A stretch of DNA of 64,000 nucleotides from Paraburkholderia fungorum (GTDB taxonomy: Bacteria > Pseudomonadota > Gammaproteobacteria > Burkholderiales > Burkholderiaceae): contig NZ_FNKP01000002.1 of the NCBI RefSeq assembly GCF_900099835.1, positions 434,001 to 498,000 of the forward strand, given 5' to 3'. A model generated the notes under the pieces. The model had not been told where the DNA came from. It saw only the letters and a list, made by a program, of their open reading frames with translations, and made no database searches. Position numbers and translations under genes: made by a program. Shown here one piece after another: positions 1-18,212 of the stretch. Position 1 is the stretch's first letter, and every line of letters begins with the position of its first letter.

Positions 1-3000
1 CGTGATCGAGCGCATGGCCGAGCGGCAGACGCCCTGAGGCATCGCGCTCCGAGGTCATCACGCCGACCGTCGATTCGGTCGGTCCGTAGTGGCCGATGAT
101 TGCGCAACCGGCATGCAACTGGCCGACGCGTTCGAGCAGCGCAACAGCGCTTGTTTCGCCGCCGAGTAGCAACGCCTTGCGTGGAATCACCGAAGCGGGG
201 TCTGCGGCGTTGAGCAAACCTTCGAGGTGGCTCGGCGCGATTTTCAGCAGATCGGCGGGATTCGCGCGGCACCAGTCGGCGTAGCGGTCGGCGTCGAACG
301 CGCGTTGTTCGTCGATTAGCTGCAGGGTCCAGCCCGAATACAGCGCGGCCATCAGCGTCGAGTGGCCGAGATCGGCGGCCGGTGTCGACAGATAGACGGC
401 GCTGCGGATGCCGCCGGGCAAACGCGCGAGCAACGCCTCGGTGTAAGCGGCGAGCGAGCGATGCGAGACGAGCACGCCTTTGGGCGTGCCGGTCGAACCG
501 GACGTGTAGATCAGGTACGCGGCGAGGTCGGCGTGCGCGGTGGCCGACACGTCGTGTCCGGCGGATGCAGACGCGGTTTCCCACATGTCCGACGGCTCGA
601 CCAGTGCAATATCGTCGGGACGCCATGCGTGATCGGCTTTGTTATCTGCGATTACACACTGTGCCTGGGCATCGCGAATCTGCCAGTGCAGGCGTTCGGC
701 GGGTGCCAACGGATCGAGCGGCAAATAGACACCGCCCGCGCGCCAGATCGCGAGCATTGCCACGATCAGGTCCGCGCGACGTGGCAGCACGACAGCCACC
801 ACGGTTTCGATCCGCACGCCCGACGCGACCAAACGAGCGGCCAATGAGCCGGATCGCTGCCACAGCGTCGCCCAATCGAGTGTGCCGCTTTCGTCGTGCA
901 ACGCAATTGCCGTTGGCTGGCTGCGTGCGTGTTGCGCAATGCGAGCTAGCATGCCGCCGTTCCATGCCGACGGCGCGAACCCGTCGTTGTCGAATGACAT
1001 GGCAGGATGCGCTTCGCCGCGCACATGAAGCACACCCAGCGCGCGTTCTGGATCGACAATGAACTCGCCGAGCGTCTGCTGCAATTGCGCGAGCAGACGC
1101 TGCACGGTTGTGCTGTCGAAGCGAGCCGATTGCGCGGCGAGCGTCAGGATCAACTCGTCGCCCGGCACCGCGATCAGGCTCAACGGGAAGTGATTGCGGC
1201 CGTCATGCGAGTGTCCTTCGATACCGGTCGCAAGTCGCTCGATCGCGAGACCCTGCACCAATGGTGCACGCAACGCGGCATCGAGCGGATAGTTTTCGAA
1301 CACGAAAATGCTGTCGAATAGCGGCTCGTTCGCGGCACCCGTGATCTCGCGTTGCAATTGCGCAAGCGGCGTCTGCGCGAGTTCCTGTAACGCGAGATTG
1401 CGCGTTTGCAGCGCATTGAGCCATGTGCGAACGCTTGCCGAAGGCGGCAACTGGACCGTCAAAGGCAGCGTGTTGATGAACAGGCCCACGGTCTCGCCGG
1501 CATTCGGCCAGCCGTCGCCGCGTCCCGATACGGTGACGCCGAACGATACGTCACGCCGGTTCGCGTGACGCGACAGCAGCCACGCCCACGCGCCCTGAAG
1601 CAGCGTGTTCAACGTGACGCCGCAAGCGCGGGCGAAGCGGTCGGCTTGCGCGGTCAGCGCGCGGGGCAGACGTACCGTGTGTTCAATCTGTTCGCTGGTT
1701 TGTGCGTGTTCTGGCAAGGCCGAAGTTGCATGTTCAGCAGCCGCCAGCGGCAACGGTGTACGCGACCAGTCGGTGAGTAAGTCGCGCCATTTCTGCGCCG
1801 TGTCGTCGTTGTTTGCGGCACCGCTTTTCTGTTCGAGCCAACGTACGTAGTGGGCAAATGCCGGTGCGGGGGGCGCCGTAACGTCGATCTCCGCCGTGGT
1901 CCCAGATAAAGCCCGGTCATACGCCTGCAACACGTCGCGCAACACCAGTCCAATACTCCACCCATCGAGTTGCGCATGATGAAAGCGCCACACGAACCAG
2001 CGGCAGCCCGCATGACGCTCGATCAGCAACAACTGCGCATGTGCGGCATCCGCGAAATCGAAACCTTGCGACTGCGCGTCGCGCCATTGCGACGCGAGCG
2101 CATCGCGAGCCTCGCCGTCAGTCAGATGACTCCAGTCGAGCGACCGTATTTCTATCTCGACGTGCTGGCGCACCAGTTGCAACGGCGTGTCGAGTCCGTC
2201 CCAACGGAAATCGGTGCGCAGCGCCGGATGTCGCGCGACCACCGCTCGCCATGCCGCAGCGAACGCATCCGGCGAGAATGGTCCCTTCAATTCGAACACG
2301 CGTTGCAGATAGTACGGATCGCGAGTCGAGCGCTGAGCCAGCGACAGCAGCCCTTGCTGAAGCGGCGTCGCGACGCACAGGTCTTGCAATCCGGCGCGTT
2401 CGGCGGCGCTCAGTTGCAGCGAGTCTGCCAATGTGACGTCGATTGCGATGTCGGCTGCTGCCGCTGTGCGCGAATTCGTTTCCGGTGCTGCAAGTTGCGC
2501 CACCCGCGCCAATTGCTCGACGGTCGGGTTCTGAAAAACCTGTCTCGGCGTGAGGTCGAAACCCGCTTCGAGCGCCGCACCCACCATCCTGAGACTAACG
2601 ATCGAATCGCCACCCGCCGCAAAGAAATCGGTCGTGACGCCTAGCGTTGCCGAGGGCAGCAGCGTGCGCCAGATAGCGAGCAATTGCGCTTCGAGTTCAT
2701 TACGCGGTGCGACGATCGCAGTCGCAGCGGTATCCACGGCGGGCGCGGGCAGGTTGCGTCGATCGATCTTGCCGCTCGGCGTCAGCGGCAACGCATCCAG
2801 CACCACCCACGCGGACGGAATCAGCGCGGCCGGCAAACGCTCGGCCAATGCGCTGCGCCATGGCGTGTGACCATCGTCCAGTGCAGTGTCGCTGACCAGA
2901 TAGGCGACGAGTCTCGCCGCGCCATCGTCGTGTCGCAGAACCACGGCCGCATCGCGCACGCCGTCCAATGCACGCAACGCCGTTTCAATTTCCGCCGGTT

Positions 3001-6000
3001 CGATCCGGTGACCGCGCAGCTTCAGTTGCTGATCGAGACGGCCGAGATAGTCGAGGCCACCGTCGGCTCGTTTGCGGCTCAGGTCGCCCGTGCGGTACAG
3101 CCGCGAACCCGGTGCGCCGAACGGATCGGGCACGAAGCTCGCCGCGGTCAGCGACGCGCGTCCGTGATAGCCGCGCGCCAGATTGTCCCCGCCGATGCAC
3201 AACTCGCCGACCGCTCCCGCCGCTGTCGGCAGGCCGTCCTGATCGAGTACGCGCAACGTGGTGTCATGCAACGCAACGCCGAGCGTGACGGGTTGATCGG
3301 CGGCGACGGTGGCCATGCTCGACCAGATCGTCGTCTCGGTCGGGCCGTACATATTGGACAGCGTCACACCGCGTTCGAGCAGCGCCGAGGCCAGATCGGC
3401 CGGCAATGCTTCGCCGCCGCACAACGCCTGCAACGGACCGCTCAACGCGACGCCCGCGCGCGTTTCGCTGTCGAGCAGCATGCGCCAACCGGCGGGCGTT
3501 GCCTGCATGACGGTGGCGCCGCTCTGTCCGATGAGCCGCAGCAGACGCGCGCCGTCGAGTACCGTTTCGCGCGATGCCAGTTCGACTCGCGCGCCGCGCG
3601 TGAGCGGCAGGTGCAACTCCAGTCCGGCGATGTCGAACGACAACGTCGTCACGCTGAGCCACACGTCCGTATCGCTGAAATCGATGCGCGCGGCGACGCT
3701 CGCGAGCAGGCGGTCGAGGCTCGCGTGTGTGACGCATACGCCCTTCGGCTCGCCGGTCGAGCCGGACGTGTAGATCACGTAAGCGGCCTGTTGCGGGTCG
3801 ATCGGCTGACTCCAGCCGTGCGCCGCTTCGCCGTGCACATCGTTCACGCGCACCAGCGTGCGGCCCGCGAAGCAGGCTGCAAGCCGGGCGGCGCTGGCGT
3901 CGTCGGTGACGATCAGATCGACACCGGCGTCGTCGAGAATGCGTTGCAGCCGTTGCGGCGGATGATGCGGGTCGAGCGGCACATACGCCGCGCCGGTTTT
4001 GGCGATGCCGTACAGCCCCGCGACCATCTCGACGGAACGCTCGACGCACAGGCCGATGCGTTGTTCCGCGCGCGCGCCGAGCGCCTTGAGGCGGCGTCCG
4101 ATCCGGTTCGACCATGCATCGAGCGCGGCGTAGCTGAGCGTCTTGCCTTCGCAGCCGAGCGCATGCGCCGCCGGTTTGCGCGCGGCCTGCGCAGCGAGGC
4201 GCGCGCCGATCGGCACGAAGCGATGACCGGCGACGCGCCGCAAGACTTCGTGCGACGCCTCGGCAGCCGCAGCGTCGCGATTGGGCATCAGGTTGCCGAC
4301 TGCCTGGTCATCGGCGTCGGCGGCGGACAACGCGGCGAGCACGTCGCGCCAGGCGGCGGCGAGTTGCAGCAGCAGCGGCTGCGCGACGCGCGCGCCGTCC
4401 GCGAGCCAGACGACACGGCCTTGCGCATCGTTCGACACCAGCAGGGTCAGCGGATAGTGCGTGCGCTCGACCGACTCGACGTGGCTCACGCCGACGCGGC
4501 CGAAACGGCCGCGCAACGCGGCATCGACGGGATAGTTTTCGAACACGAGCAGGCTGTCGAACAGCGCGTCGCCGCTCTTGCCGGTCCACTGTTGCAGATC
4601 GGCCAGCGACGTGTGTTCGGCCTGATGGCGCTCGCCCTGCGCGGCGTGTACCGACGACAGCCACGCCGACACGCGTTGCGCGGCCGGCACTTCGATCCAC
4701 GCGGGCAGGCTGTTGATGAAGAGGCCGACCATCCGTTGCGCGCCGTCGAGTTGCGCAGGGCGACCCGCGACGGTCGTGCCGAACGCGACGTGACGGCGAT
4801 TGCCGCGCCGCGCCAATACGAGCGCCCACGCCGCCTGCACGAGCGTATTCACCGTCACGCGATGACGTTGCGCGGCGTCGCGCAGCCGGTTCACGAGCGG
4901 TTCGCCGAGATGCTGGGTGTGGGTCAGCGCGGCGCCATGTTCCTGCGCGGCGCGCGCCTCGTGTTGCAACAAGGTCGCCGGTTCCGGGTGGCGCTCCAGT
5001 TGCGTGAGCCACCAGTCGCGCGGCGGCGTTTGCGCCGACAGCCACTCGACATAGCGGCGATACTGAATCGCCTCCGGTTGCGGCGGCGTTTCTCCGGCGA
5101 CTCGCGCGACGTAATCGTCGGCGATTTCACCGAGCAGTTGCGCGCTGCTCCAGCCGTCCAGCAACGCGTGATGGAGGGTGCGGACCAGATCGTGCTGCCC
5201 GTCGGCCCGCGTGAACAGCGCAAAGCGCAACAGCGGTGCGCGCGCGGGGTCGAAGCCCTGGCGACGGTCGGCATCGCACCAGGCCTGCAGGTCACGCTCG
5301 TAATCAGCGGGCTCGAGCGCGGACCAGTCGTATTCGACGAACGGCAACTCGACGCGCCGTTGCACGAGTTGCAACGGATCGGCTGCCGGCGGCACGACGA
5401 ACGACGTGCGCAGGATGTCGTGACGCGCGACGGCGTTGCGCCATGCCGCGGCCAGCGCAGCATGGTCTAGCGGACCCTCCAGCGTGAGCCGAAGCTGGTT
5501 GACGTAAAGGCCGTGGCCGCCGTCCATCAATGCATGGAACAGCAGGCCTTTTTGCAACGGCGTTGCTGGGTACAAATCCTGAACATTGGCGCGCTCCAGG
5601 TTCAGCGCATCGAGCGCAGGCTGGTCGAGTTGCGCGAGCGGAAAATCGCTGGCGTCGAGCGGCATATCGCCTGAAATACATCGGTCGATGAGCGCGGCGA
5701 GTTGCGTTTCGAAACCGCTTGCAAGCGACTCCGCGACACCGGACGAGATGTGCGCCGGGTCGTAGCGCAACGTGGCCGTTAACCGGCCGTTGGAAATCCA
5801 CGCGTTGATGTCGAGCGCGTAATCGAGCGGCGTGTGAGCGGCGACGGCCGCGCCCAGATTGTCGTCGAGCGCGAACGAAAGACGTCCGGCGAGCGAACCG
5901 GTTTGCGGCAGGCTCTGATCGAATCGGCCGAGATAGTTGAAGCTGATTTGCGGGGCCGGCAGCGAGTTCGCGAACCGCTCGCGCACGCGATGCCAGTGAG

Positions 6001-9000
6001 CGCCGCGCAACGGGATGGCGCGCAACGTGCGGGTGGCCGCGACCAGTGGATCGCCGCCGCGCAGATCGAACCATGCCGGATAGCGGGTAGTGAACCAGCC
6101 GACTGTCCGGCTCGTGTCGAGCGCGGCCTGTGCGCCATTGGCGGTGCCGTTGAGGTCGCGTTCCGCGTCGCGCCCGTGGCCTTCGAGCGACAGCAATGCG
6201 CCGCGAGCTCCGCTCCATCGGTTCAGCGATGAAGTGAGCGCGGCGAGCAACAGTGTTTCGGTGGTGGCGCGTGCGGCGGCGGGCGCGTCGCGCAGCAGCT
6301 TGCCGGTCAGGTCGGCTGAGAGCTTCAACGTCTGAGTCTGGCTGGTGCCGACGGTCGGCCTTTCTTCGCGCGCCGATGCTTTTGCCGTGCTCGAACCTTG
6401 CACGATCTGGGCGGCTTCAAGGTCGGCGTGCGCGGCGTTTTCGTGCGAGTACGATCCGGCGAGCAACGCGTGCCACGCATCGAATTCTGCTTCGAGCGAT
6501 GTCTCATCCGCTGCGTCCTGCTGATGTTGCACCCATGCGCTCCACGGCAAGCCGCCGGGCAACTCAACCGCCTGCTGTTGCGCAAGTTGCTCATACGCAA
6601 GCTGGAACGATTCGAGCAGAACGCGCCACGACATGCCATCGACCGCGAGGTGATGGATGGTCAGCAGCAACCGCCCTTCGTTTTGCAAGCGGACATAAGT
6701 CGCGTTCAGCAGCTTGCCCGTTTCGATATCAAGGCTCTGCTGCAACGACGTGCCGATCGCCAACAGACGCTCGGGCCACTGCGGCGAATCGGCTGTTCCG
6801 TCGAAGTCGACGACCTCGAGAAACGTGGTCGCGGAGGGCATCGACTCACGCGGCTGCACCTGTTGCCACCAGCCGCCAGGCGAGCGGACGAACTTCAGAC
6901 GCAACGCGTCGTGCGCGGCAACGACCGCATGCAGCGCCTGCTTGAGCAAAGCGGGATCGAATTCGCCTTGCACACGCAACGCGACGGTCTGGTTCCAATG
7001 CGATTCGCCCTCGGGAAAGCGCTCGAAGAACCATGTCTGAATCGGCGTGAGCGGCAACGGTTCGTGCCGTTCGGATGGCATTGCCTGATCGGCGTCGCCA
7101 GCCGTAATCGTGAACGGTAACTGCGCAAGCCGCGAAATCACCGGCTGCGCGTAAAACTGCTTCAGCGTGAAATGCATGCCGCGCTGTGCGGCTCGTGACA
7201 CCACTTGCAGACTTAGAATCGAATCGCCGCCCACAGCAAAAAAGTTATCGTCGACGCCGATTGCCTGCGTCCCCAAAACCGCGCGCCAGATGTCGAGCAG
7301 GTCCGCTTCGTGACGATTACGCGGTTCGCGCACAGACGCTTCAGCGTGTTTCGCCGATTCCACCGGCTCCGGCAATGCGGCGCGGTCGATCTTGCCGTTC
7401 AGCATCAGCGGCAACGTGTCGAGTTGCATCAGCACGGCGGGCACCATATGGGAGGGCAGACGCGCTTCGAGCGTGTCGCGCAGCGCCCGCAGATCGAGCG
7501 ACGCCGCACCGGCCACATAGCCGACCAGACGCAGATGCCCGTCCTTGCTGCGCGCTTCGACGGCGGCGTCGCGCACGCCGTCGCATTGCCGCAGCATCGC
7601 TTCGATCTCGCCCGGTTCGATCCGGAAGCCGCGCAGTTTGATCTGCCGGTCTATCCGTCCCAGAAAGTCGAAGCCGCCGTCAGCGCGGCGGCGGCACAGA
7701 TCGCCACTGCGATAGCAGCGCGCGCCGGGCGAGCCGTCCGGGTCGGGGACGAATCGCTCGGCGGTCAGCGCCGCCTGTCCGACATAGCCGCGCGCCAGCG
7801 TATCTCCGCCAATGCACAGTTCGCCGATGCCGCCCACGGGCACCGCGTTGCCGTCGACGTCCACCACTTGCGCGGTCCGCGAAGGGAACGGCGTGCCGAT
7901 CTGCACGATGGGCTGTTGCGCATCGTCGGCGCTGGTCCGGCGATGCAGGCAGGCGACTGTGGTTTCGGTCGGGCCATACAGATTGTCGACGTGGATCGCG
8001 CGTAACGGGCCGCTGTTCCAGCGGGCGAGCGCGTCGCCGGGCAGCGCCTCGCCGCCGACCGTGATCTGGCGCAGCGCGGCGAGGCTTGCGCGCGCGGGCG
8101 GCGATTGCAGCCATTGCTGCCAGTAGGCGGTCGGCATCCGCGCGAAGGTGACGCGCGAATTGATCAGCCGCTGGCTGAGTGTCGCGAGGTCCCACGCCTG
8201 CGGGCCGCGCATGACGACGCGGCCGCCCATCAGCAACGCGGGCAGCATTTCGTGCAACGCCACGTCGAAATTGATCGTGGACGACTGCAACTGGCAATCG
8301 TGTTCGGTGATCGCGTAGTTGTCGATGAAGTCGGCGAGATGCAACGCGAGCGCGCGGTGGCTGACCGCCACACCCTTCGGAAGACCGGTCGAGCCAGACG
8401 TGTAGATCGTGTACGCGAGTTGGTCGGGATGCGGCGTTGTGACGTGGCGTTGCGTGCTTTGTGGGCTTTGTGTGATGGTGGCCGTCGCTTGATGGATGTC
8501 GAGCTGGATGTCGAGCGACGTGCGCGCGTCGAACACGTCGGCAAGCGTTTCGAGGTTGACCGTGTCGCTGACCACGACACGCACACACGCATCGTCGAGC
8601 ATGTAGCGCAGACGTTCGGCCGGATAGACCGGATCGAGCGGCACGAACGCGGCACCCGCCTTCCAGATGCCAAGCAGCGCGGCGATCATGCCCGGCGAGC
8701 GTTCGACGCATAGTCCGACGCATTCGTCGCCGCGTACGCCCGCGTCCAATAAACGCTGCGCGATGCGGTCGGACCAGCGGTCAAGCTCGCCGTAGCTCAG
8801 TTGTTGCGCGTCGCATTCGAGTGCGATCCGGTCGGGATGGATGTTCGCCGTGCGCGTGAACTGTGCGGTGAGAGAAGTTTGCGCTGCCTGTTGCGTCGCG
8901 CGCTTCGGCTGCATCTGCAACACGGCCGCCGCGCTGGTCGAAGGCTGCAACACAAAATCCCGCACATTCGACGACGCGTCTTCAGCCGCCTGCGCAACGA

Positions 9001-12000
9001 TGGCGAGATATGCATCGGCGAATTGCTCGACGGTGTCGCCATCGAATAACTCGACCGGGTACTCGAACGCGAGTTGAACGCCGTCGTCATCGCGAGAGAG
9101 ATTCAGCGCGAGATCGAACGGCGTCGCTTCGGCGCCATGTTCGACGCGCTGCAGTTGCAGCGTGCTGGAGCGCAGTACCTGCTTCCAGTCCACCTGATCG
9201 AAGTTGAATGCAACCTGAAACAGGGGCGTGCGCCCGTTGTCGCGCTGCGGCTGCAACGCCGCAACCACGCGATGAAATGGCACGTCCTGATGGGCCTGCG
9301 CGTCGAGCAGCGCGTCGCGCGTAGTGCGCAACAGCGACGCGAACGGCAGCGCGCCCGCGAGCGCGACCCGCACCACGACCGTGTTGACGAAGTAGCCGAT
9401 CGCGCGTTCCGCCGACGCATCGCGCCGGTTGTTCAACGGCACGCCGATGCGGATATCGGTTTGTCCGCCGTAGCGGTAAAGGAGGGCGGCGAACGCGGCC
9501 ATCAGCGTCATCGGCAGCGTGAGGCCGTGGCTGCGCGCCAGCGTGCCGATGCGCGCGACGAGGTCGGCGGGCAGGCGTCGCGTGACGCGTGCGCCAGCGC
9601 TGTCGCGCGGCGCATCGCGCCTTGCGCCCGACAGCATGATGTCCGTGTGCTGGCTGCCGAGTTGTGCGCGCCAGTATGTGAGTTGTTCGTCGATCCGTGC
9701 GGCACTCAGCGCGCGGCGTTCGTGTTCGACGGACGTGAAATAAGCGCAGGGTTGTGCATCGCCGGACACGACGCGGTTTTCATAGCGCTGGAACAGCGAT
9801 TCGATGATGAGCGCGAACGACCACGCATCCGCGACGATGTGATGCATCGTCAGTTGCAAAACGTGTTCGTCCGCTGCTACGCGCACCAGTGTTGCGCGTA
9901 GCAGCGCGCCGTGGTGGAGATCGAACGGCGCGTGCGCAATCGCGATCAGTTGGTCCTGCAGATGCGCTTCACGGCTCGCGGCATCGAACGATGAAACGTC
10001 GGTGACGTGCCAGTCGAAGCGCGGTGCGTCAATGGCCTGCTGATAGGGCACGCCGTCGCGTTCGTCGAAACGCACGCGCAGCGCGTCATGGCTTGCGCAG
10101 ACCTCGGCGAGTGCCTGGTGAAGCCGCGCGACATCGAGCGGGCCGCGGGCCCGCAACGCCCCCGACACGTGATACGCGGTGCTGGCGGGGTCGAGCTTCC
10201 ACTCGAAATACAACGCTTCCTGCGCGGGCGAGAGCGGGTGAGGCGTGCCGTCTCGTTGCGCCGATGCGAGTGTGGATGAAGTTGCAGCAGGCTCGGCAAC
10301 GAGCGGCGCAATCACAGCCCTTCCGGCGTGCTGCATGGCGGTCACCCATTCAGCTTGCAACGCTACGGTGCGCGCTTCGAATACGATGCGCGGCGGCATG
10401 GTCACGCTGAACGTTTCGCCGACTCTCGCCGCCAGTCGCGCGGCTTTTAGCGAGTCGCCGCCCAGGTCGAAAAAGTCGTCGTCGATGCCTAACGGTGCGT
10501 GGTCGAAAACGGCCTCCCATTGTTCGACCAGCGCCTGTTCGACCGCCGATTGCGGCGCGCGATACGGCGCTCTTGCCAATGCGTTGCCGCTGGTATCCGA
10601 GGCCCGCCGATAAACCGCGACAGTCGGCAGCGCACCGTCGCGCCACGCGGTTGCGCACGCGCTGCGGCGCAATTTGCCGCTCGACGTACGCGGCAGATCG
10701 CCGGGAGCGAGCAGCACAATCACGCTGACCGGTTCGCCATGCGCTTGCGCGACCGCGCGGTTGATCTGCGCGAACAGCTCGGCCGGATCGGCTTTCGCCA
10801 CCGCGCGCGACACCTCCGCGGCAATCCCGATTCCTTCGACGCCTTGCTCGTTCGCGGCGAACGCGATGATCCGGCCTTTGCGAACCTTGTCGACCTTCTG
10901 CGTCAGCGTCGCCTCGATATCCTGCGGATAGTAGTTTTGTCCGCGAACGATGATCAGGTCCTTCACGCGCCCGGTGACGAATAATTCGCCATCGACGACG
11001 CAACCCAGATCGCCAGTGCGCAGCCAGTGTTGTGCGCCTGCGTTGTCTGTATCGCTCGTGACGAAGGTCTCGGCGCTGGCTTCCTCGTTGCGCCAGTAGC
11101 CGTTGGCAACGCTCGGCCCGTTGACCCAGATCTCACCGATCTGTTCATCGGCCAGTTGAGCCTGCGTAGCAGGGTCTACGATCAGCACGCTGTGCGCGTC
11201 CGGCACGCGGCCGCAACTGACCAGCGCCACACCGTCACCGGATGCCTTCAGCGCGCCCTCGCTGAGCGCTTGCGGCGCGACATGGCGCACCTTCATGCCG
11301 TGGCCGGGCTCCGCGCCGCTGACCAGCAGCGTCGCTTCCGCGAGACCGTAGCAGGGGAACAGCGCGTTCGCATTGAAGTCGTGCATGCCGAACTGGGCCG
11401 CGAATTGCATCAGCGTTTCCGCGCGAATCGGCTCCGCGCCGCAGAACGCGACGCGCCAGCTATCGAGCTTGATGCCGTCGAGTTGCCCGCTGCGCACGCG
11501 ATCCGCACACAGTTGGTACGCGAAATTCGGGCCGCCGCTGACGGTGCCGCGATAGTTGGCAATCGCTTTCAGCCAGCGAGCGGGCGCTTCGAGAAAGTGC
11601 TGCGGCGACAGCAGCACGAGCGGGAACCCACCGAACAATGGCGCCAGCAGGCCGCCGATCAGGCCCATGTCGTGGAACAGCGGCAGCCAGCTCACCATCG
11701 TGTCGGCGGACGTGAAGGCCATCGCCGAGCTGATCGCGCGTTCGTTCGCGACGAGGTTCGCGTGACTGACCATCACGCCCTTCGCGGTGCTGGTCGAGCC
11801 GGACGTGTATTGCAGGAACGCGATGGTCGAGCCGTCGATTGAAACGGGCGCATTCAGGGCGATGGCCAGTGCGTCGTCGGTCGTCGTTGCGTCGACCGGT
11901 AACGTGATCGGCACGGCCGTTTCGTGGACGCCCTCGCTGTGCTCGGTAGCGAGCGCATTCACGGCGCCAGCGTGGGCGAGATCGGTCAGCAGCAAACGTG

Positions 12001-13171
12001 GCTGCGCGTCGCCGAGAATCGCCAGCAGGCGCTCGAATTGTTGCGGCTGGGTCGGCTCCGGCGGATACACCGGCACGGCGGCGATGCCCGCATGCAGACA
12101 GCCGAGGAACGCGACCGCATAGTCGAGGCCCGACGGCAGCAACAGCATCGCGCGATCGCCGGGCGATGCCTGCGTGAGCAGTGTGGCGGCGAGTTGCCGC
12201 GCGCGTGCGTCGAGTTCGCGATAGGTGAGCGTGCGTTCGTCGCGTTCGCCATCGGCGAGGAAGCGAATCGCGATCTGGTCGGGTTGATGCGCGAGATGAA
12301 CGGCAAGCGCATCGAGCAGCGTGACCGGTGTTCTGGGAACTGATGCGGCTTGCGCTGCTTCCACCGCTTCCTTCATCGCGCCCGGATTGCGCCGCAGGAA
12401 CGGACACGCGCCGAAATTCGGTGTCTCGTCGTCGGGCAGGAAGTACTGCTTCCACTCGCGGTTTTCCGCGTCGCCGAAATAACCGAGGTCCGCGTGCGGC
12501 GGCACTTCATCCCAGATGTTCAGCCGGCGCCGCACTTCGGAGCGCGCCTGCGTGCTGATCGCGCGGTTCGTCACCTTGTCGACGAACACGGCGCGCGGCT
12601 GGAACAGCAGCACCATGCCGGGCCCGAGGTTGCGGCTGTGACGCGTACCGAACGACGGGCACGCGCACACCACGAACGTTTCCAGTCCCGCGAAAGAAAA
12701 CTCCCAGTCCGGGTGCGAAGGATCGAGTTGCTGTCCCACCTTCGGATCGGGATCGCGGTCGTGCAGATACTGCAGCGTTTGCCAGAACGCATCGTGATAC
12801 GCGGCGTGCGCCAACGGCTCCTCGTCCGGCTCGAAGAAAATCGCGATGTTGTTCTTCTCGTATTGCGGCAACTGCGCGAGTTCCGCGAAGCTGGCCATCG
12901 TGTCCGGCAGCGAAGAAATGTCCTTGCCGTCGATCCACGAATAGAACATCTCGCCGCGCTTCTCCGCCTGGGTGCCGAAGAAACATGGATAGCCCGGGTC
13001 CATCACGTCGGCGCGCAGGCGCTCGTACGATGCGGGCAGCCAGTCGGGCAACGGGCGATTGAACGTGTTCGCGCCGACCTGGCGGCCGAGAATGATGCGG
13101 GATTGCCAGTCGGATACGTCGATCGCGTCGCCGTCCAGATTCGGGCTAACAGATTCCTTTTCAGGCTGCAT
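1..13171 (-). CDS. NRPS with N-terminal YqcI/YcgG haem N-hydroxylase and FAAL (partial)
   Basis: The reading frame is open from an ATG at 13171 (GGAG seven bases upstream) to the window edge, giving at least 4390 residues with the C-terminus missing. Approximate domains are: YqcI/YcgG family 1-270 (YPCFFGT, FQPR, EWKQYFL and a closing CPF); fatty acyl-AMP ligase 285-870 (QYTSGSTSTAKG); ACP 885-930 (LGGDSL); C 973-1403 (HHIVADAW); A1 1440-1930; T1 1957-2007 (VGGDSI); E 2033-2497 (HHLAVDG, GWFT, FNYLG); C2 2523-2957 (HHALLDGW); A2 2973-3477; T2 3497-3557; C3 3583-4053 (HHAQLDGW); A3 from 4070, cut just after GPTEST. Pocket residues read D-I-L-Q-L-G-M-I-W for A2, the glycine code, and D-L-S-K-L-G-H-V-G for A3, close to aspartate. 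A1 reads D-V-H-R-I-V-L-V-A, which I cannot assign. The E domain implies a D residue at position 1. The fusion partner suggests N-hydroxylated arginine chemistry for a lipopeptide siderophore. Module identities are clear; the product is inferred. Confidence 0.93.
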   Translation of the reverse strand, partial: MQPEKESVSPNLDGDAIDVSDWQSRIILGRQVGANTFNRPLPDWLPASYERLRADVMDPGYPCFFGTQAEKRGEMFYSWIDGKDISSLPDTMASFAELAQLPQYEKNNIAIFFEPDEEPLAHAAYHDAFWQTLQYLHDRDPDPKVGQQLDPSHPDWEFSFAGLETFVVCACPSFGTRHSRNLGPGMVLLFQPRAVFVDKVTNRAISTQARSEVRRRLNIWDEVPPHADLGYFGDAENREWKQYFLPDDETPNFGACPFLRRNPGAMKEAVEAAQAASVPRTPVTLLDALAVHLAHQPDQIAIRFLADGERDERTLTYRELDARARQLAATLLTQASPGDRAMLLLPSGLDYAVAFLGCLHAGIAAVPVYPPEPTQPQQFERLLAILGDAQPRLLLTDLAHAGAVNALATEHSEGVHETAVPITLPVDATTTDDALAIALNAPVSIDGSTIAFLQYTSGSTSTAKGVMVSHANLVANERAISSAMAFTSADTMVSWLPLFHDMGLIGGLLAPLFGGFPLVLLSPQHFLEAPARWLKAIANYRGTVSGGPNFAYQLCADRVRSGQLDGIKLDSWRVAFCGAEPIRAETLMQFAAQFGMHDFNANALFPCYGLAEATLLVSGAEPGHGMKVRHVAPQALSEGALKASGDGVALVSCGRVPDAHSVLIVDPATQAQLADEQIGEIWVNGPSVANGYWRNEEASAETFVTSDTDNAGAQHWLRTGDLGCVVDGELFVTGRVKDLIIVRGQNYYPQDIEATLTQKVDKVRKGRIIAFAANEQGVEGIGIAAEVSRAVAKADPAELFAQINRAVAQAHGEPVSVIVLLAPGDLPRTSSGKLRRSACATAWRDGALPTVAVYRRASDTSGNALARAPYRAPQSAVEQALVEQWEAVFDHAPLGIDDDFFDLGGDSLKAARLAARVGETFSVTMPPRIVFEARTVALQAEWVTAMQHAGRAVIAPLVAEPAATSSTLASAQRDGTPHPLSPAQEALYFEWKLDPASTAYHVSGALRARGPLDVARLHQALAEVCASHDALRVRFDERDGVPYQQAIDAPRFDWHVTDVSSFDAASREAHLQDQLIAIAHAPFDLHHGALLRATLVRVAADEHVLQLTMHHIVADAWSFALIIESLFQRYENRVVSGDAQPCAYFTSVEHERRALSAARIDEQLTYWRAQLGSQHTDIMLSGARRDAPRDSAGARVTRRLPADLVARIGTLARSHGLTLPMTLMAAFAALLYRYGGQTDIRIGVPLNNRRDASAERAIGYFVNTVVVRVALAGALPFASLLRTTRDALLDAQAHQDVPFHRVVAALQPQRDNGRTPLFQVAFNFDQVDWKQVLRSSTLQLQRVEHGAEATPFDLALNLSRDDDGVQLAFEYPVELFDGDTVEQFADAYLAIVAQAAEDASSNVRDFVLQPSTSAAAVLQMQPKRATQQAAQTSLTAQFTRTANIHPDRIALECDAQQLSYGELDRWSDRIAQRLLDAGVRGDECVGLCVERSPGMIAALLGIWKAGAAFVPLDPVYPAERLRYMLDDACVRVVVSDTVNLETLADVFDARTSLDIQLDIHQATATITQSPQSTQRHVTTPHPDQLAYTIYTSGSTGLPKGVAVSHRALALHLADFIDNYAITEHDCQLQSSTINFDVALHEMLPALLMGGRVVMRGPQAWDLATLSQRLINSRVTFARMPTAYWQQWLQSPPARASLAALRQITVGGEALPGDALARWNSGPLRAIHVDNLYGPTETTVACLHRRTSADDAQQPIVQIGTPFPSRTAQVVDVDGNAVPVGGIGELCIGGDTLARGYVGQAALTAERFVPDPDGSPGARCYRSGDLCRRRADGGFDFLGRIDRQIKLRGFRIEPGEIEAMLRQCDGVRDAAVEARSKDGHLRLVGYVAGAASLDLRALRDTLEARLPSHMVPAVLMQLDTLPLMLNGKIDRAALPEPVESAKHAEASVREPRNRHEADLLDIWRAVLGTQAIGVDDNFFAVGGDSILSLQVVSRAAQRGMHFTLKQFYAQPVISRLAQLPFTITAGDADQAMPSERHEPLPLTPIQTWFFERFPEGESHWNQTVALRVQGEFDPALLKQALHAVVAAHDALRLKFVRSPGGWWQQVQPRESMPSATTFLEVVDFDGTADSPQWPERLLAIGTSLQQSLDIETGKLLNATYVRLQNEGRLLLTIHHLAVDGMSWRVLLESFQLAYEQLAQQQAVELPGGLPWSAWVQHQQDAADETSLEAEFDAWHALLAGSYSHENAAHADLEAAQIVQGSSTAKASAREERPTVGTSQTQTLKLSADLTGKLLRDAPAAARATTETLLLAALTSSLNRWSGARGALLSLEGHGRDAERDLNGTANGAQAALDTSRTVGWFTTRYPAWFDLRGGDPLVAATRTLRAIPLRGAHWHRVRERFANSLPAPQISFNYLGRFDQSLPQTGSLAGRLSFALDDNLGAAVAAHTPLDYALDINAWISNGRLTATLRYDPAHISSGVAESLASGFETQLAALIDRCISGDMPLDASDFPLAQLDQPALDALNLERANVQDLYPATPLQKGLLFHALMDGGHGLYVNQLRLTLEGPLDHAALAAAWRNAVARHDILRTSFVVPPAADPLQLVQRRVELPFVEYDWSALEPADYERDLQAWCDADRRQGFDPARAPLLRFALFTRADGQHDLVRTLHHALLDGWSSAQLLGEIADDYVARVAGETPPQPEAIQYRRYVEWLSAQTPPRDWWLTQLERHPEPATLLQHEARAAQEHGAALTHTQHLGEPLVNRLRDAAQRHRVTVNTLVQAAWALVLARRGNRRHVAFGTTVAGRPAQLDGAQRMVGLFINSLPAWIEVPAAQRVSAWLSSVHAAQGERHQAEHTSLADLQQWTGKSGDALFDSLLVFENYPVDAALRGRFGRVGVSHVESVERTHYPLTLLVSNDAQGRVVWLADGARVAQPLLLQLAAAWRDVLAALSAADADDQAVGNLMPNRDAAAAEASHEVLRRVAGHRFVPIGARLAAQAARKPAAHALGCEGKTLSYAALDAWSNRIGRRLKALGARAEQRIGLCVERSVEMVAGLYGIAKTGAAYVPLDPHHPPQRLQRILDDAGVDLIVTDDASAARLAACFAGRTLVRVNDVHGEAAHGWSQPIDPQQAAYVIYTSGSTGEPKGVCVTHASLDRLLASVAARIDFSDTDVWLSVTTLSFDIAGLELHLPLTRGARVELASRETVLDGARLLRLIGQSGATVMQATPAGWRMLLDSETRAGVALSGPLQALCGGEALPADLASALLERGVTLSNMYGPTETTIWSSMATVAADQPVTLGVALHDTTLRVLDQDGLPTAAGAVGELCIGGDNLARGYHGRASLTAASFVPDPFGAPGSRLYRTGDLSRKRADGGLDYLGRLDQQLKLRGHRIEPAEIETALRALDGVRDAAVVLRHDDGAARLVAYLVSDTALDDGHTPWRSALAERLPAALIPSAWVVLDALPLTPSGKIDRRNLPAPAVDTAATAIVAPRNELEAQLLAIWRTLLPSATLGVTTDFFAAGGDSIVSLRMVGAALEAGFDLTPRQVFQNPTVEQLARVAQLAAPETNSRTAAAADIAIDVTLADSLQLSAAERAGLQDLCVATPLQQGLLSLAQRSTRDPYYLQRVFELKGPFSPDAFAAAWRAVVARHPALRTDFRWDGLDTPLQLVRQHVEIEIRSLDWSHLTDGEARDALASQWRDAQSQGFDFADAAHAQLLLIERHAGCRWFVWRFHHAQLDGWSIGLVLRDVLQAYDRALSGTTAEIDVTAPPAPAFAHYVRWLEQKSGAANNDDTAQKWRDLLTDWSRTPLPLAAAEHATSALPEHAQTSEQIEHTVRLPRALTAQADRFARACGVTLNTLLQGAWAWLLSRHANRRDVSFGVTVSGRGDGWPNAGETVGLFINTLPLTVQLPPSASVRTWLNALQTRNLALQELAQTPLAQLQREITGAANEPLFDSIFVFENYPLDAALRAPLVQGLAIERLATGIEGHSHDGRNHFPLSLIAVPGDELILTLAAQSARFDSTTVQRLLAQLQQTLGEFIVDPERALGVLHVRGEAHPAMSFDNDGFAPSAWNGGMLARIAQHARSQPTAIALHDESGTLDWATLWQRSGSLAARLVASGVRIETVVAVVLPRRADLIVAMLAIWRAGGVYLPLDPLAPAERLHWQIRDAQAQCVIADNKADHAWRPDDIALVEPSDMWETASASAGHDVSATAHADLAAYLIYTSGSTGTPKGVLVSHRSLAAYTEALLARLPGGIRSAVYLSTPAADLGHSTLMAALYSGWTLQLIDEQRAFDADRYADWCRANPADLLKIAPSHLEGLLNAADPASVIPRKALLLGGETSAVALLERVGQLHAGCAIIGHYGPTESTVGVMTSERDASGRLPLGHALDH

Positions 13172-13200
13172 CAGATGCTCCAGATGTGCGTGTGCTAACG

Positions 13201-13268
13201 CCGGCTCGTCGTGTGCGAGCCGGACGGTTGATCCGGTAGGGCAGAAGCCCGAGGACCGCGCCTCGGGC
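13201..13268. other. Two tandem intercistronic hairpins
   Basis: The 156-base gap between the NRPS start and the SznF-like gene holds two perfect inverted repeats. CCGGCTCG at 13201-13208 pairs with CGAGCCGG at 13216-13223 across a 7-base loop. GCCCGAGG at 13247-13254 pairs with CCTCGGGC at 13261-13268 across a 6-base loop. Neither is followed by a T-run on the operon strand, so they look more like mRNA processing or stability elements than terminators. Confidence 0.6.
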
Positions 13269-13327
13269 AAGGGAGTGAATGGGTGCGTCGCGACGCGGCG
13301 GCACCCGTGACGCGCGGGCGGCGCGCG

Positions 13328-14785
13328 TCAGGTCGTGACGGCGCTCGCCCGAGAGGCGTCGGCAGCGGCCGTGGCCGGCGGCGCGGTGAGTTCCGCGATC
13401 CAGTCATCGGGGATGATCGGCTGGTGATACGTGCACGAATCGGATTCGACGGTGGAGCCGTGCAGGCGGCCGTCCGGGATCAGCACCATGTCGCCGGGAT
13501 GCATCTGCAGCTTCATGCCGAGGTTGCCCCAGAACAGCATGTCGCCGCTTTCGATCACGACCAGCCGGTGCTCGTTATGCACGTGCGTGGTCGAGCAGAG
13601 TTCATGCGGCTCGATAAACGTATCGCGGTCGATATCCGGGAAATCGATTTCGATCTTGTCGTAGATGCGCCGCGCGTACTCGCAGTACGTTTCGATCGAC
13701 GACAGCCAGTCCAGTTGTTCGCCGAGATCCCAGCGTGCGCGCTGCGCCAGCAATTGCGCCGCCGCCACGCCTTGCGCGAATTGATGCAGCGCGGCTTCGC
13801 CGTGTTGGGTGGCGAGGGTGTCGATGGTGCGGTCGAAACGCGCTTGCAGATTCGCGCGCAAGTCGTTCATGTTCGCACCGGCGGCCGCGCCCGGTGCGAT
13901 GTGCGCGCAGGCCTTGAGCAGCGCACCGCCGAACGCGAGATGCTCCGCCTCGGCGACGAACGCCGCGCCCGCGAGGGCGAACGCACGATCGGGCCGCGAG
14001 CCGAGCGCGTAGAGCAGATTGCAGCGCGCGAGCGTGGTCGGCAGATAGAACTGCCAGTACGAATGCGTTTGACGCGTGACGCCGCACATCGCCGCGATGC
14101 GCGCGAAGGTGGCGTCGTCCGGCAGCCTGCTCGACAGGCTCGGGCGAAGCTCTGGATCGAGCCAGTCGAAATAGCAGGAACCGGCGGCGCGCGCGAGTGC
14201 AGTGCGGCGCGACGGCAGCGTCGCCCAACGCTGAATCACGATGAAGCGCAAACCTTCTTCGAGAAAATCGCGCTCCAGCAATCTGTCGAAACGCAGGTTC
14301 CAGAATTGCATTTCGTCGTCGATCGTCGTGCTCAGGCGCGTGCTGAGCGTTTCGCGCGATTCGCCGGGCTGCGCCTCGTCGCCGAGATAATCGAATGCGT
14401 AGGCTTCGAGGTAAGGGCGAATCTGCGCGCCGATGATCCGCTGTTTATCGACATAAAACGCGCTGAACCGCTGTTGCTGGTCGGCCGCGAGACCTGGCGC
14501 GCGGCAGATGTCGAGTTCGTTGATCGTCAGCAGTGTGCGGTTGGTCGCGAGCGACGGCAGGCGGCTCACGTTGTCAGCGCGCACCGGCTTCTGATATTGC
14601 AGAAAAGTGAAATCTTCGGGCCGCAGCGGGCGGCGATAGAAATCGTCGTCCAGCACCAGTTCGTCGACGGATGCGCTGCGAAACGGCTCGCACGCGGCGA
14701 ATTCGCGCAGCAGCGAGCGGAAGGTTTCGCGCTGCGGTAACTGCGCGGCGAAATCGAACAACGGAGGTAAGGCGGTCGGGTTCAT
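13328..14785 (-). CDS. SznF-like helical domain plus cupin metalloenzyme, candidate N-N bond forming
   Basis: A 485-residue protein, close to the 471 residues of streptozotocin SznF. Residues 1-380 are mostly helical. From about 395 a cupin follows with an HxH pair (H401, H403) and H442 in a GRLHG motif. The spacing of 2 and 39 residues is the same as the SznF cupin iron ligands as I recall them (H407, H409, H448), where the cupin rearranges an N-hydroxylated guanidine into an N-nitroso group. I could not place the seven diiron ligands of the SznF HDO domain in the helical part; only E279 and E281 stand out. The gene sits between the thioesterase and the NRPS in one operon, and GGAG eight bases upstream supports the start. 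With the YqcI/YcgG domain next door, a role in making a diazeniumdiolate amino acid such as graminine from arginine is likely. Family assignment is by motif and length only. Confidence 0.6.
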   Translation of the reverse strand: MNPTALPPLFDFAAQLPQRETFRSLLREFAACEPFRSASVDELVLDDDFYRRPLRPEDFTFLQYQKPVRADNVSRLPSLATNRTLLTINELDICRAPGLAADQQQRFSAFYVDKQRIIGAQIRPYLEAYAFDYLGDEAQPGESRETLSTRLSTTIDDEMQFWNLRFDRLLERDFLEEGLRFIVIQRWATLPSRRTALARAAGSCYFDWLDPELRPSLSSRLPDDATFARIAAMCGVTRQTHSYWQFYLPTTLARCNLLYALGSRPDRAFALAGAAFVAEAEHLAFGGALLKACAHIAPGAAAGANMNDLRANLQARFDRTIDTLATQHGEAALHQFAQGVAAAQLLAQRARWDLGEQLDWLSSIETYCEYARRIYDKIEIDFPDIDRDTFIEPHELCSTTHVHNEHRLVVIESGDMLFWGNLGMKLQMHPGDMVLIPDGRLHGSTVESDSCTYHQPIIPDDWIAELTAPPATAAADASRASAVTT

Positions 14786-14860: not shown

Positions 14861-15625
14861 TCAGCCGATGGGTTGTATCTCGGCGGGTGTCTGCTGCGAC
14901 AACGTTTGGCGCAATGAAGCAGCAAGACTGTCGATCACTTCGCCGCGATGGCTGTCGATAAAGAAATGGCCGCCGTCGAAAGTCGAGCGTGAGAAGCGGC
15001 CGCGACTTTCGCTTCGCCACGCATCGAGCGTGGCAGGGTCTTGCGTGACGTCGTCGCGACTGCCGCCGAACGCATGCAGCGCGCAATCGAGCGGACGCCG
15101 CGTGCCGGCGCGCGGCGCACGCCACGTGCCATACAGATGAAAGTCGTTGCGCACGATCGGCACGATCAGTTCGACGAATTCGCGGTTTGCCAGCAATTCC
15201 GGCGCGGTCTGGCCGAACGCCGTCAACTCGTCGAGCACGTCCTGTTCGGGACATGTCAGCCAATCCATTTCAGCCTCGTGATGCGACGGCGCAGGGCAGC
15301 CGGACACGCCTAGCCAGCGTGGTTCGATACCGAGTCGTTCACGCAACGCATGCGTCAGTTCGAGCGCCAGCAACGCGCCGAGGCTATGCCCGAACAGCGC
15401 GAACGGACGGCCAGAGTGCTGACGCAGTGCAACTTCTGCGTCGTCGGCGAGACGGTCGATTAGCGGTGCCCACTCCGGCAGCAATGCCTGATCGTGACGC
15501 ACGCCACGCCCCGGCAGATGCAACGGCGCGATGTGCAGCCAGTCCGGCGATGCCTGCGGCCAGTTTCGATAGACGGCCGCCGCCCCGCCTGCATACGGCA
15601 GGCAAAACAATGTGATCGGCTGCAT
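14861..15625 (-). CDS. Type II thioesterase of the NRPS cluster
   Basis: A 254-residue alpha/beta hydrolase of the external (type II, GrsT-like) thioesterase family, which removes stalled or wrong acyl groups from carrier proteins. The start LFCLPYAGG is typical of the family. The nucleophile elbow GHSLG lies at about residue 98, the acid is in GSRDD near 195 and the histidine in GGHFF near 225. Its ATG is 10 bases after the mbtH stop with no strong ribosome site, which suggests translational coupling. The SznF-like gene starts 75 bases further on. It is cytoplasmic and part of the siderophore operon. Confidence 0.9.
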   Translation of the reverse strand: MQPITLFCLPYAGGAAAVYRNWPQASPDWLHIAPLHLPGRGVRHDQALLPEWAPLIDRLADDAEVALRQHSGRPFALFGHSLGALLALELTHALRERLGIEPRWLGVSGCPAPSHHEAEMDWLTCPEQDVLDELTAFGQTAPELLANREFVELIVPIVRNDFHLYGTWRAPRAGTRRPLDCALHAFGGSRDDVTQDPATLDAWRSESRGRFSRSTFDGGHFFIDSHRGEVIDSLAASLRQTLSQQTPAEIQPIG

Positions 15626-15635
15626 GGAACGGGTG

Positions 15636-15884
15636 TTATTGCGCGGTGATGTCGGCAGGGGAAACGGCGGTGCGTGGCGCCTGGGCGTCCATCGCCTGAC
15701 GCAGGCTGAGCGGACGCATGTCCACCCACACTTCGTCGATATGCGCGAGGCATTCGGCTTTGCTGCCCTGCTTGCCGACGGTGTGCCAGCCCGCGGGCAG
15801 ACTCTTGTAGGTCGGCCAGATCGAGTACTGCTCTTCGTGATTCATCACCACGTCATACACGGTATTTTCGTCGCCCCAGCTCAT
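15636..15884 (-). CDS. mbtH: MbtH-like NRPS accessory protein
   Basis: An 82-residue MbtH family protein, which binds and activates NRPS adenylation domains. The family signature is intact: [14 protein letters not shown], a CL pair, then [10 protein letters not shown]. The C-terminal tail of about 20 residues is longer than in minimal MbtH proteins. GAGGAA seven bases upstream fixes the start. It is the first gene of the siderophore operon, about 170 bases downstream of the predicted promoter. Confidence 0.95.
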
Positions 15885-16478: not shown

Positions 16479-18212
16479 ATGTCGGAAAAAAAGCGGAAAT
16501 TGCGATCGACGGAATGGTTCGGTACCGCCGACAAGAACGGCTTCATGTATCGAAGCTGGATGAAGAACCAGGGCATTCCCGATCACGAATTCGATGGCCG
16601 CCCGGTCATCGGGATCTGCAATACCTGGTCGGAACTCACGCCGTGTAACGCGCACTTTCGCAAGCTCGCCGAGCACGTGAAGCGCGGCATTTATGAAGCA
16701 GGCGGATTCCCCGTCGAGTTTCCGGTGTTCTCCAACGGCGAATCGAATCTGCGTCCTACCGCGATGCTCACGCGCAATCTCGCGGCGATGGACGTGGAAG
16801 AAGCGATTCGCGGCAATCCGATCGACGCGGTCGTGCTGCTGACCGGCTGCGACAAGACCACCCCTGCATTGCTGATGGGCGCGGCGAGTTGCGATGTGCC
16901 CGCGATTGTCGTCACCGGCGGCCCGATGCTGAACGGCAAGCTCGACGGCAAGAACATCGGCTCCGGTACAGCGGTGTGGCAACTGCACGAATCGCTGAAG
17001 GCGGGCGAGATCAATCTGCATCAGTTCCTGTCGGCGGAAGCGGGCATGTCGCGCTCGGCGGGCACCTGCAACACGATGGGCACCGCGTCGACGATGGCGT
17101 GCATGGCCGAAGCGCTCGGCACGTCGCTGCCGCATAACGCGGCGATTCCCGCGGTCGATTCGCGCCGCTACGTGCTCGCGCATATGTCGGGCATTCGCAT
17201 CGTCGAGATGGCGCATGAAGGGCTCACGCTGTCGAAGATCCTGACGCGCGAAGCATTCATGAACGCGATCCGCACGAATGCCGCGATTGGCGGCTCGACC
17301 AATGCGGTGATTCATCTGAAGGCGATTGCCGGGCGAATGGGCGTCGACCTCGAACTGGAAGACTGGGTGCGCATCGGCCGCGACACGCCGACTATCGTCG
17401 ACCTGATGCCGTCGGGCCGCTTCCTGATGGAAGAGTTCTATTACGCGGGCGGTTTGCCGGCGGTTCTGCGCCGTCTCGGCGAAGCGGATTTGCTGCCGTT
17501 CCCGGGCGCGCTGACCGTCAACGGCAAGTCGTTGTGGGAGAACGTGAAGGAAGCGCCGAACACGAACGACGAAGTGATTCGTCAACTCGACAATCCGCTC
17601 GTCGCCGATGGCGGCATTCGCGTGCTGCGCGGCAATCTCGCGCCGCGTGGGGCGGTGCTGAAGCCGTCGGCGGCCACGCCTGAATTGCTGAAGCATCGCG
17701 GGCGCGCGGTGGTGTTCGAGAACCTCGAGCACTACAAGGCAAAGATCGTCGACGAAGAACTCGATGTCGATGCGAACTCCGTGCTCGTGTTGAAGAACTG
17801 CGGACCGAAGGGTTATCCCGGCATGGCCGAAGTCGGCAACATGGGTTTGCCGCCGAAGCTGCTGCGTGAGGGCGTGAAGGACATGGTGCGCATTTCCGAC
17901 GCGCGCATGAGCGGCACCGCATACGGCACGGTCGTGTTGCACGTCACGCCGGAAGCGGCTGCGGGCGGTCCGCTCGCAGCGGTGCAGGACGGCGACTGGA
18001 TCGAACTCGATTGCGACGCGGGCACGCTGCATCTGGATATCAGCGACGCAGAACTCGAACGGCGGATGGTGAATCACGTGCCGCCGCAACCGCCTGAGGG
18101 TGGTGGCTATCAACGCCTTTATGTGGACCACGTTTTGCAGGCCGACGAAGGTTGCGACCTCGACTTTCTGGTGGGTTGTCGTGGTGCTGCTGTGCCGCGC
18201 CATTCGCACTGA
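16479..18212 (+). CDS. IlvD/Edd-family sugar-acid dehydratase, likely L-arabinonate dehydratase
   Basis: A 577-residue member of the iron-sulfur dehydratase family (IlvD, Edd, L-arabinonate and D-xylonate dehydratases). The N-terminus (SEKKRKLRSTEWFG) and overall length match the Rhizobium-type L-arabinonate dehydratase rather than true IlvD. Cluster cysteines are visible in ICNTW, TGCDKTTPA and TCNTMGT, and the Mg-binding regions follow. The reaction is dehydration of L-arabinonate to 2-dehydro-3-deoxy-L-arabinonate in oxidative L-arabinose catabolism. AAGGAA upstream supports the start. The neighbouring arabinofuranosidases and transporters support an arabinose role. D-xylonate or another pentonate remains possible. 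Confidence 0.8.
   Translation: MSEKKRKLRSTEWFGTADKNGFMYRSWMKNQGIPDHEFDGRPVIGICNTWSELTPCNAHFRKLAEHVKRGIYEAGGFPVEFPVFSNGESNLRPTAMLTRNLAAMDVEEAIRGNPIDAVVLLTGCDKTTPALLMGAASCDVPAIVVTGGPMLNGKLDGKNIGSGTAVWQLHESLKAGEINLHQFLSAEAGMSRSAGTCNTMGTASTMACMAEALGTSLPHNAAIPAVDSRRYVLAHMSGIRIVEMAHEGLTLSKILTREAFMNAIRTNAAIGGSTNAVIHLKAIAGRMGVDLELEDWVRIGRDTPTIVDLMPSGRFLMEEFYYAGGLPAVLRRLGEADLLPFPGALTVNGKSLWENVKEAPNTNDEVIRQLDNPLVADGGIRVLRGNLAPRGAVLKPSAATPELLKHRGRAVVFENLEHYKAKIVDEELDVDANSVLVLKNCGPKGYPGMAEVGNMGLPPKLLREGVKDMVRISDARMSGTAYGTVVLHVTPEAAAGGPLAAVQDGDWIELDCDAGTLHLDISDAELERRMVNHVPPQPPEGGGYQRLYVDHVLQADEGCDLDFLVGCRGAAVPRHSH

Follow-up and report, generated by a model that had tools for sequence, protein, structure and literature searches.

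Gramibactin and the megapolibactins carry two graminines each (PMC6771848), and grbD and grbE mutants of Paraburkholderia graminis are rescued by synthetic L-graminine (PMC6771848). The adenylation domain code for graminine, DVHRTGLVAK, is quoted in PMC10391617, which reports one module with the graminine code for tistrellabactin (PMC10391617, PMC10849742 and PMC12866846 are cited throughout from excerpts of their text). As early as 2019, fusions of GrbE with NRPSs were noted, and the YqcI-MbtH kind of fusion is mentioned in PMC6771848. A fused GrbE has already been published as MobF of Tistrella mobilis, whereby the authors left the biosynthetic relevance of the GrbE-NRPS fusion undecided (PMC10391617). 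Within the open-licence literature, the excerpt of PMC11705231 names GrbE with no word on a fusion, and that of PMC12971057 likewise has none on GrbE-NRPS fusions.

ChmN, a relative of the hydroxylase domain described here, mono- and dihydroxylates L-arginine and its dihydroxyarginine product degrades; for ChmM no activity has been shown yet (PMC10849742). The same work counts 107 ChmN homologues adjacent to SznF homologues whose diiron domains are predicted to be inactive. Moreover, it describes a new cluster of 48 NRPS-/PKS-associated SznF relatives with the same pattern, apart from the group of GrbD. For AglA, the gate residues Phe152, Arg179 and Phe182 and the haem ligand Cys44 are reported in PMC12866846. 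The wild-type enzyme, with Lys196 and Lys225, shows essentially no activity towards free arginine, a substrate that the engineered enzyme can use after the double change K196R/K225E (R196, E225) (PMC12866846).

The locus described here lies in a 64,000-nucleotide stretch of Paraburkholderia fungorum DNA, the window. It holds homologues of both GrbD and GrbE, the latter forming the start of an NRPS.

Gene cluster and fused reading frame

A summary of the features is given in Table 1. The genes are arranged on the minus strand in the order MbtH, type II thioesterase, GrbD, fused NRPS1, NRPS2 (3762 aa) and NRPS3 (~1864 aa, with a C-terminal thioesterase domain). Siderophore receptor and transport genes follow further on in the stretch L151, namely a TonB receptor, an ABC ATPase, a periplasmic binding protein and a FecCD permease. 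The same stretch also encodes an ABC transporter that has a membrane region. The adenylation domains of NRPS1 read graminine, DILQLGMIWK, DLSKLGHVGK and DILQLGLIYK, those of NRPS2 DFWNVGMVHK, DILQLGLIYK and graminine. NRPS3 adds one further graminine module. DVHRTGLVAK itself is found in module 1 of NRPS1 and module 3 of NRPS2, the one-letter variant DVHRTGLIAK in NRPS3. The remaining codes of the cluster we take to be Gly-like, Asp-like and Thr-like.

GrbD, the graminine codes and the siderophore transport genes support the earlier assignment to a gramibactin-type cluster. The cluster is of the diazeniumdiolate (graminine) siderophore type, its product being predicted from the genes. We predict a lipopeptide siderophore of eight residues, of which up to three are graminines; this makes the cluster a concrete target for product discovery. 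Close to the cluster a hydrolase of the penicillin-amidase family is encoded (L151:3400-5907, minus strand; PF01804, E 1.2e-122). For the Tistrella cluster, an NTN hydrolase (MobM) has likewise been predicted (PMC10391617). The fatty acid is hence perhaps removed from the final siderophore. Beyond the cluster, the window contains an IlvD-type dehydratase gene (16479-18212) and, up to 29333, an apparent arabinoside-utilisation locus (AraC regulator, MFS, GH127, ABC sugar transporter, arabinofuranosidase). Both are not obviously related to the siderophore.

Table 1. Features of the fused gene and its surroundings. Positions refer to the window unless a neighbouring stretch (L002, L151) is named; residues are those of NRPS1.
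Feature	Position	Strand	Basis or remark
MbtH-like protein	15636..15884	-	Pfam PF03621, 2.3e-22
Type II thioesterase	14861..15625	-	Pfam PF00975, 1.6e-46
GrbD, SznF homologue, gene upstream of fused gene	13328..14785	-	PDB 6m9r, E 2.2e-35
NRPS1 share within window	2..13171	-	4390/5743 residues; C-terminal rest outside window
Start codon ATG of fused protein (likely)	13169..13171	-	GGAG at 13178-13181
YqcI/YcgG (GrbE-type) haem N-hydroxylase domain, residues 53-258	12398..13015	-	Pfam PF08892, E 2.4e-59
Cys63, predicted axial haem ligand	12983..12985	-	aligned with AglA Cys44
Inter-domain linker, residues 259-285	12317..12397	-	~27 residues; length varies among relatives (alignment)
Internal ATG (Met266)	12374..12376	-	no Shine-Dalgarno-like motif; not supported as start
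Fatty acyl-AMP ligase (FAAL), residues ~292-850	10622..12298	-	Pfam AMP-binding and AMP-dom_DIP2-like
Carrier protein (PP-binding), residues ~880-943	10343..10534	-	Pfam
First condensation domain, residues ~979-1388	9008..10237	-	Pfam, 2.5e-91
First adenylation domain, excerpt residues 1480-1879	7535..8734	-	code DVHRTGLVAK, the published graminine code
Graminine-code module, NRPS1 module 1	7535-8734		
Graminine-code module, NRPS2 module 3	L002:3647-14935		
Graminine-code module, NRPS3	L151:15044-19885		

The minus-strand frame 13270..2 does not contain a single stop over 4423 codons. Translated from the ATG at 13171 and continued into the adjoining stretch of the contig (L002), the full protein comprises 5743 aa. 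According to Pfam the frame runs from the YqcI/YcgG domain through the FAAL and the carrier protein into the first condensation domain, exactly as read in the first-pass annotation. The CPF motif, which was said to close the hydroxylase domain near residue 270, is present but located about a dozen residues off, at 256-258. The FAAL is composed of an AMP-binding match (residues 292-693, E 3.7e-72) and an AMP-dom match (~738-850). Residue numbers of AMP-dom, PP-binding and Condensation were renumbered from the Pfam matches of the next piece and are approximate. Searched against NCBIfam, the FAAL fragment returned a general NRPS/PKS model first and then fatty-acid--AMP ligases, all below the curated cut-offs. 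It is thus an AMP-forming acyl ligase domain ahead of a carrier protein whose nearest specific profiles are FAALs.

The ATG at 13171 is the likely start of the fused protein, with the GGAG 6 bases 5' of it. Translation of the FAAL-NRPS from the internal ATG at 12376, which would normally yield a synthetase devoid of the hydroxylase domain, is highly improbable. This codon is in frame and close to the junction, and two of seven aligned fused relatives (L107, L105) keep the methionine. Met266 is missing, however, from the other five (L106, L098, L100, L096, L055), and the earlier remark that the internal ATG has no clear ribosome site was confirmed, whereas the upstream ATG is preceded by its GGAG.

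Behind the hydroxylase domain, 38 of the 39 fused proteins have a gap of 7-74 residues; that of the remaining protein spans 199. Relatives with separate sequence records share the continuous frame while their linkers differ in length, which makes a frameshift hidden at the junction very unlikely. We compared the coding region with that of P. aspalathi by codon position. The catalytic blocks (151-250) differ at 2 first, 0 second and 30 third codon positions, and the linker-containing block (251-300) at 11, 10 and 27, such that third positions are favoured in the blocks flanking the junction. One block within the FAAL (401-450) shows an even spread (21, 15 and 17), compatible with a variable loop or with a local error of the alignment. 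Nothing at the junction itself points to a stop or frameshift masked by a sequencing error, and given the separately sequenced relatives we regard such an error as next to impossible. Moreover, a scan of 13172-13327, between GrbD and the fused gene, revealed no terminator-like site. Taken together, the fusion is real and intact.

The hydroxylase domain and its GrbD partner

The N-terminal domain scores 201 bits against PF08892 (cut-off 27). Its sequence matches in the PDB are AglA entries (three distinct sequences, best E 1.3e-28). An AlphaFold model of the domain was built from 32 sequences (mean pLDDT 79) and compared to the PDB using Foldseek. All five matches at E <= 0.001 are AglA (best E 1.6e-15), so that the model has the AglA sandwich fold. 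In the alignment, Cys63 corresponds to the haem-ligating Cys44 of AglA, and Phe166, Arg193 and Phe196 correspond to the gate residues Phe152, Arg179 and Phe182. The haem cysteine, the Phe/Arg/Phe gate and the haem-contact arginines are identical in 65/65 GrbD-linked rows (21 fused, 44 alone; Tistrella is included, G310 is not). In a broader comparison, covering 33 fused and 55 stand-alone rows, a single stand-alone row has Gly at 193. Hence the family named in the first-pass annotation was correct: by homology and modelled fold the domain is firmly identified as a GrbE-type YqcI/YcgG haem N-hydroxylase, with its activity predicted.

Arg210 and Glu239 occupy the positions of AglA 196 and 225 and equal the double change. 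We considered this pair as a mark of GrbE and rejected it, as most of 19 outgroup YqcI rows carry both residues as well (R in 13/19, E in 17/19). The pair lends weak support to a predicted use of free arginine.

The match of GrbD to SznF covers residues 32-455 of 485. The ligand mapping is based on those SznF residues which we take to serve as diiron and cupin ligands. GrbD keeps the cupin histidines 401, 403 and 442 but is changed at five of seven diiron ligand positions of the haem-oxygenase-like domain (the ligand count of 7+3 is from PMC10849742). GrbD is therefore not a full SznF-type N-nitrosating enzyme and needs a separate hydroxylase. The diiron-type domain lost most ligands, yet the match spans it; it is perhaps retained as a scaffold. 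Among 398 genomes of the wider phylum, GrbD was recovered from our own genome only, besides two weak matches at 26% identity; plasmids yielded Tistrella and one weak match only.

By analogy, the diiron loss in SznF relatives combined with arginine hydroxylation by ChmN suggests a division of labour in which the GrbE domain would act first and GrbD second. The rescue by synthetic L-graminine in P. graminis further implies that the synthesis of graminine is finished before it is loaded, and our cluster uses the same adenylation domain code. We thus propose that the N-terminal domain is the GrbE of the graminine pathway, where it would hydroxylate the guanidine of free L-arginine by means of a cysteine-ligated haem. 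The separate upstream GrbD would convert the hydroxylated arginine to L-graminine at its cupin iron site. Graminine-specific adenylation domains would then load the finished L-graminine, while the FAAL and the first carrier protein presumably initiate the chain from a fatty acid.

Distribution and origin of the fusion

PF08892 matches were collected from a family sample (398 genomes, 53 with a match, 56 places) and a genus sample (144 genomes, 43 with a match, 44 places). The samples overlap in 22 places and together give 78. Leaving out five partial or weak places (G229, G054, G130, G167, G114), 73 (near) full-length places were evaluated. The YqcI domain is fused to an NRPS in 21 of them, 12 times ahead of a FAAL and nine times ahead of a condensation domain. 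At the 52 unfused places, a match starting no more than 900 bases downstream is a FAAL in 16 cases and a condensation domain in eight; 28 have neither. GrbD is located upstream within the fetched stretch in 64/73 places, fused or unfused. A protein-database search limited to long proteins gave 39 fused proteins including our own. Beyond Burkholderiaceae, the hosts named comprise Reyranella, Tistrella, two Acetobacter species, Pendulispora and a Polyangiaceae record; several of these entries are flagged as partial. In a class sample of 369 genomes, matches occurred only in our own genome and two others, and those two are unfused (open frames of 266 and 388 aa).

These counts change the picture drawn in the first-pass annotation, where enzymes of this kind were regarded as normally stand-alone and the fusion was suspected to mark a locus-specific rearrangement. 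With 21/73 places fused, 38 further fused proteins and Tistrella MobF on record (PMC10391617), the former is not a rule for the group and the latter does not apply. The supposed novelty of the fusion is refuted by the many known fused homologues. The fusion of GrbE to an NRPS is recurrent, already in print and mostly ordinary.

Several variants were observed. In a second fusion type, GrbE is joined to a condensation-first NRPS with a graminine-code first module (L005, L009, L012, L013, L044, L057, L075, L082, L083). In the seven condensation-first fusions with sufficient sequence (L091, L093, L094, L095, L097, L099, L109), a FAAL lies ~11 kb downstream, after the frame has ended. In the fused place G310, GrbD (L155, G310:C3:616824-618209) is located ~7.4 kb upstream of the GrbE match at 625561; adjacency of GrbD is thus not strict. 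The actinobacterium Frankia gtarii encodes a YqcI domain followed by an MbtH-like stretch in one 367-aa frame (L053:7938-9041). A separate stand-alone YqcI group of Burkholderiaceae (L062, L066, L071, L080, L081) has no GrbD in the fetched stretch and falls outside the graminine group in the 104-row tree.

This tree comprises 11 of the 39 fused long proteins, 12 of the 120 listed from 270 matches and 7 of 48 plasmid records; L061, L061b and L074 are left out. Fused and stand-alone states require six changes in two other trees and nine in the 104-row tree, where five changes are forced by well-supported branches. Many deep rows are fused and some (P0153) stand alone, whereby the distant rows were drawn from length-limited searches. 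The simplest account is a repeated merging, or splitting, of the neighbours grbE and NRPS.

In this scenario grbD, grbE and the NRPS would form one operon, and repeated merger of neighbours would generate the fusion. The upstream GrbD in most places, the NRPS match within 900 bases after GrbE in 24/52 unfused places and the occurrence of fusions ahead of both FAAL-first and condensation-first NRPSs speak for a merger. The 28 unfused places lacking such a match speak against it, since they offer no direct neighbour for a merger. Given that 44 of the 65 GrbD-linked rows are unfused, the fusion cannot be a strict requirement of the pathway in general. It would tie amounts and location together, probably with no hydroxylation on carrier-bound substrate. 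As to its role, the balance of evidence is in favour of merged genes that bring no new mode of catalysis.

The counts of first adenylation domains could argue for more. Codes were read in 60 stretches of 65 graminine-type places plus our own, G417, G415, G186 and G052 not being included. Within 40 rows from Burkholderiaceae and Tistrella, the first module is a graminine module in 17/21 fused rows vs 4/19 unfused ones with an adjacent readable NRPS, which is what a coupling model would predict and speaks against a view without coupling. We discount this raw association because the rows cluster by lineage. A tree-aware test found one independent pair on supported branches and four on all branches, with a median sign-test p of 1, and thus has no power. 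The graminine code is present in the first readable module of 22/39 fused proteins but in 0/11 of the most distant ones, and a Burkholderiaceae clade of three fused rows has a first module without graminine too. Condensation-first fusions with sufficient sequence begin with the graminine module and have the FAAL in a later gene; hence the fusion is not tied to the loading module either. The fusion as a general mark of a graminine-loading first module was therefore rejected. The earlier suggestion that the fusion couples hydroxylation to the assembly line agrees with the raw counts and finds no support in the most distant fused proteins.

The same evidence bears on functional channelling, by which the tethered GrbE would hand unstable hydroxyarginine to a GrbD docked on the synthetase and from there to a nearby graminine-loading module. 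Besides the raw counts, the degradation of the ChmN product (PMC10849742) and the persistence of fusion and intact active site over a long divergence are in favour. The distant proteins, the clade of three and the tree-aware test are not, and GrbD itself is unfused. We consider channelling unlikely. For this lineage in particular, a unit of fused hydroxylase, docked GrbD and graminine first module which guards hydroxyarginine and feeds a three-graminine siderophore appears a little more doubtful still. We infer, with good though not full confidence, that the GrbE domain hydroxylates free L-arginine for the graminine pathway and that genes adjacent in one operon have repeatedly merged to give the fusion; catalysis, free-arginine substrate and the purpose of the fusion are all part of this reading.

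Comparison with known systems

The fused and unfused relatives gathered here form a natural comparison set for the biosynthetic relevance of the fusion. AglA (PDB 9ub3, 9ub5, 9uba, 9ubb, 9ubs) shares the fold, the haem cysteine and the Phe/Arg/Phe gate with our domain. It differs by Lys196/Lys225 in place of Arg210/Glu239, the latter being also the commoner state in outgroup rows. ChmN/ChmM of chalkophomycin likewise combine a YqcI/YcgG haem enzyme with an SznF relative lacking diiron ligands (PMC10849742). They are from Streptomyces, and ChmN was expressed and purified as a separate enzyme, unlike the fused domain here.

Gramibactin GrbE and GrbD of P. graminis represent the same two enzyme types combined with the same adenylation domain code (PMC6771848, PMC9679993). 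According to the excerpt of PMC10391617, GrbE stands alone in P. graminis, whereas it is fused here. MobF of Tistrella mobilis KA081020-065 (tistrellabactin, PMC10391617) is a GrbE homologue likewise fused to the start of an NRPS, and the GrbD homologue MobE is located directly upstream, as is GrbD here. The domain following GrbE in MobF is FAAL-like by our analysis, as in our protein; the abbreviations in the legend of that paper include a CAL domain. The two hydroxylase domains are 54% identical. In contrast, graminine is loaded by the third module of MobF (PMC10391617) but by the first module here.
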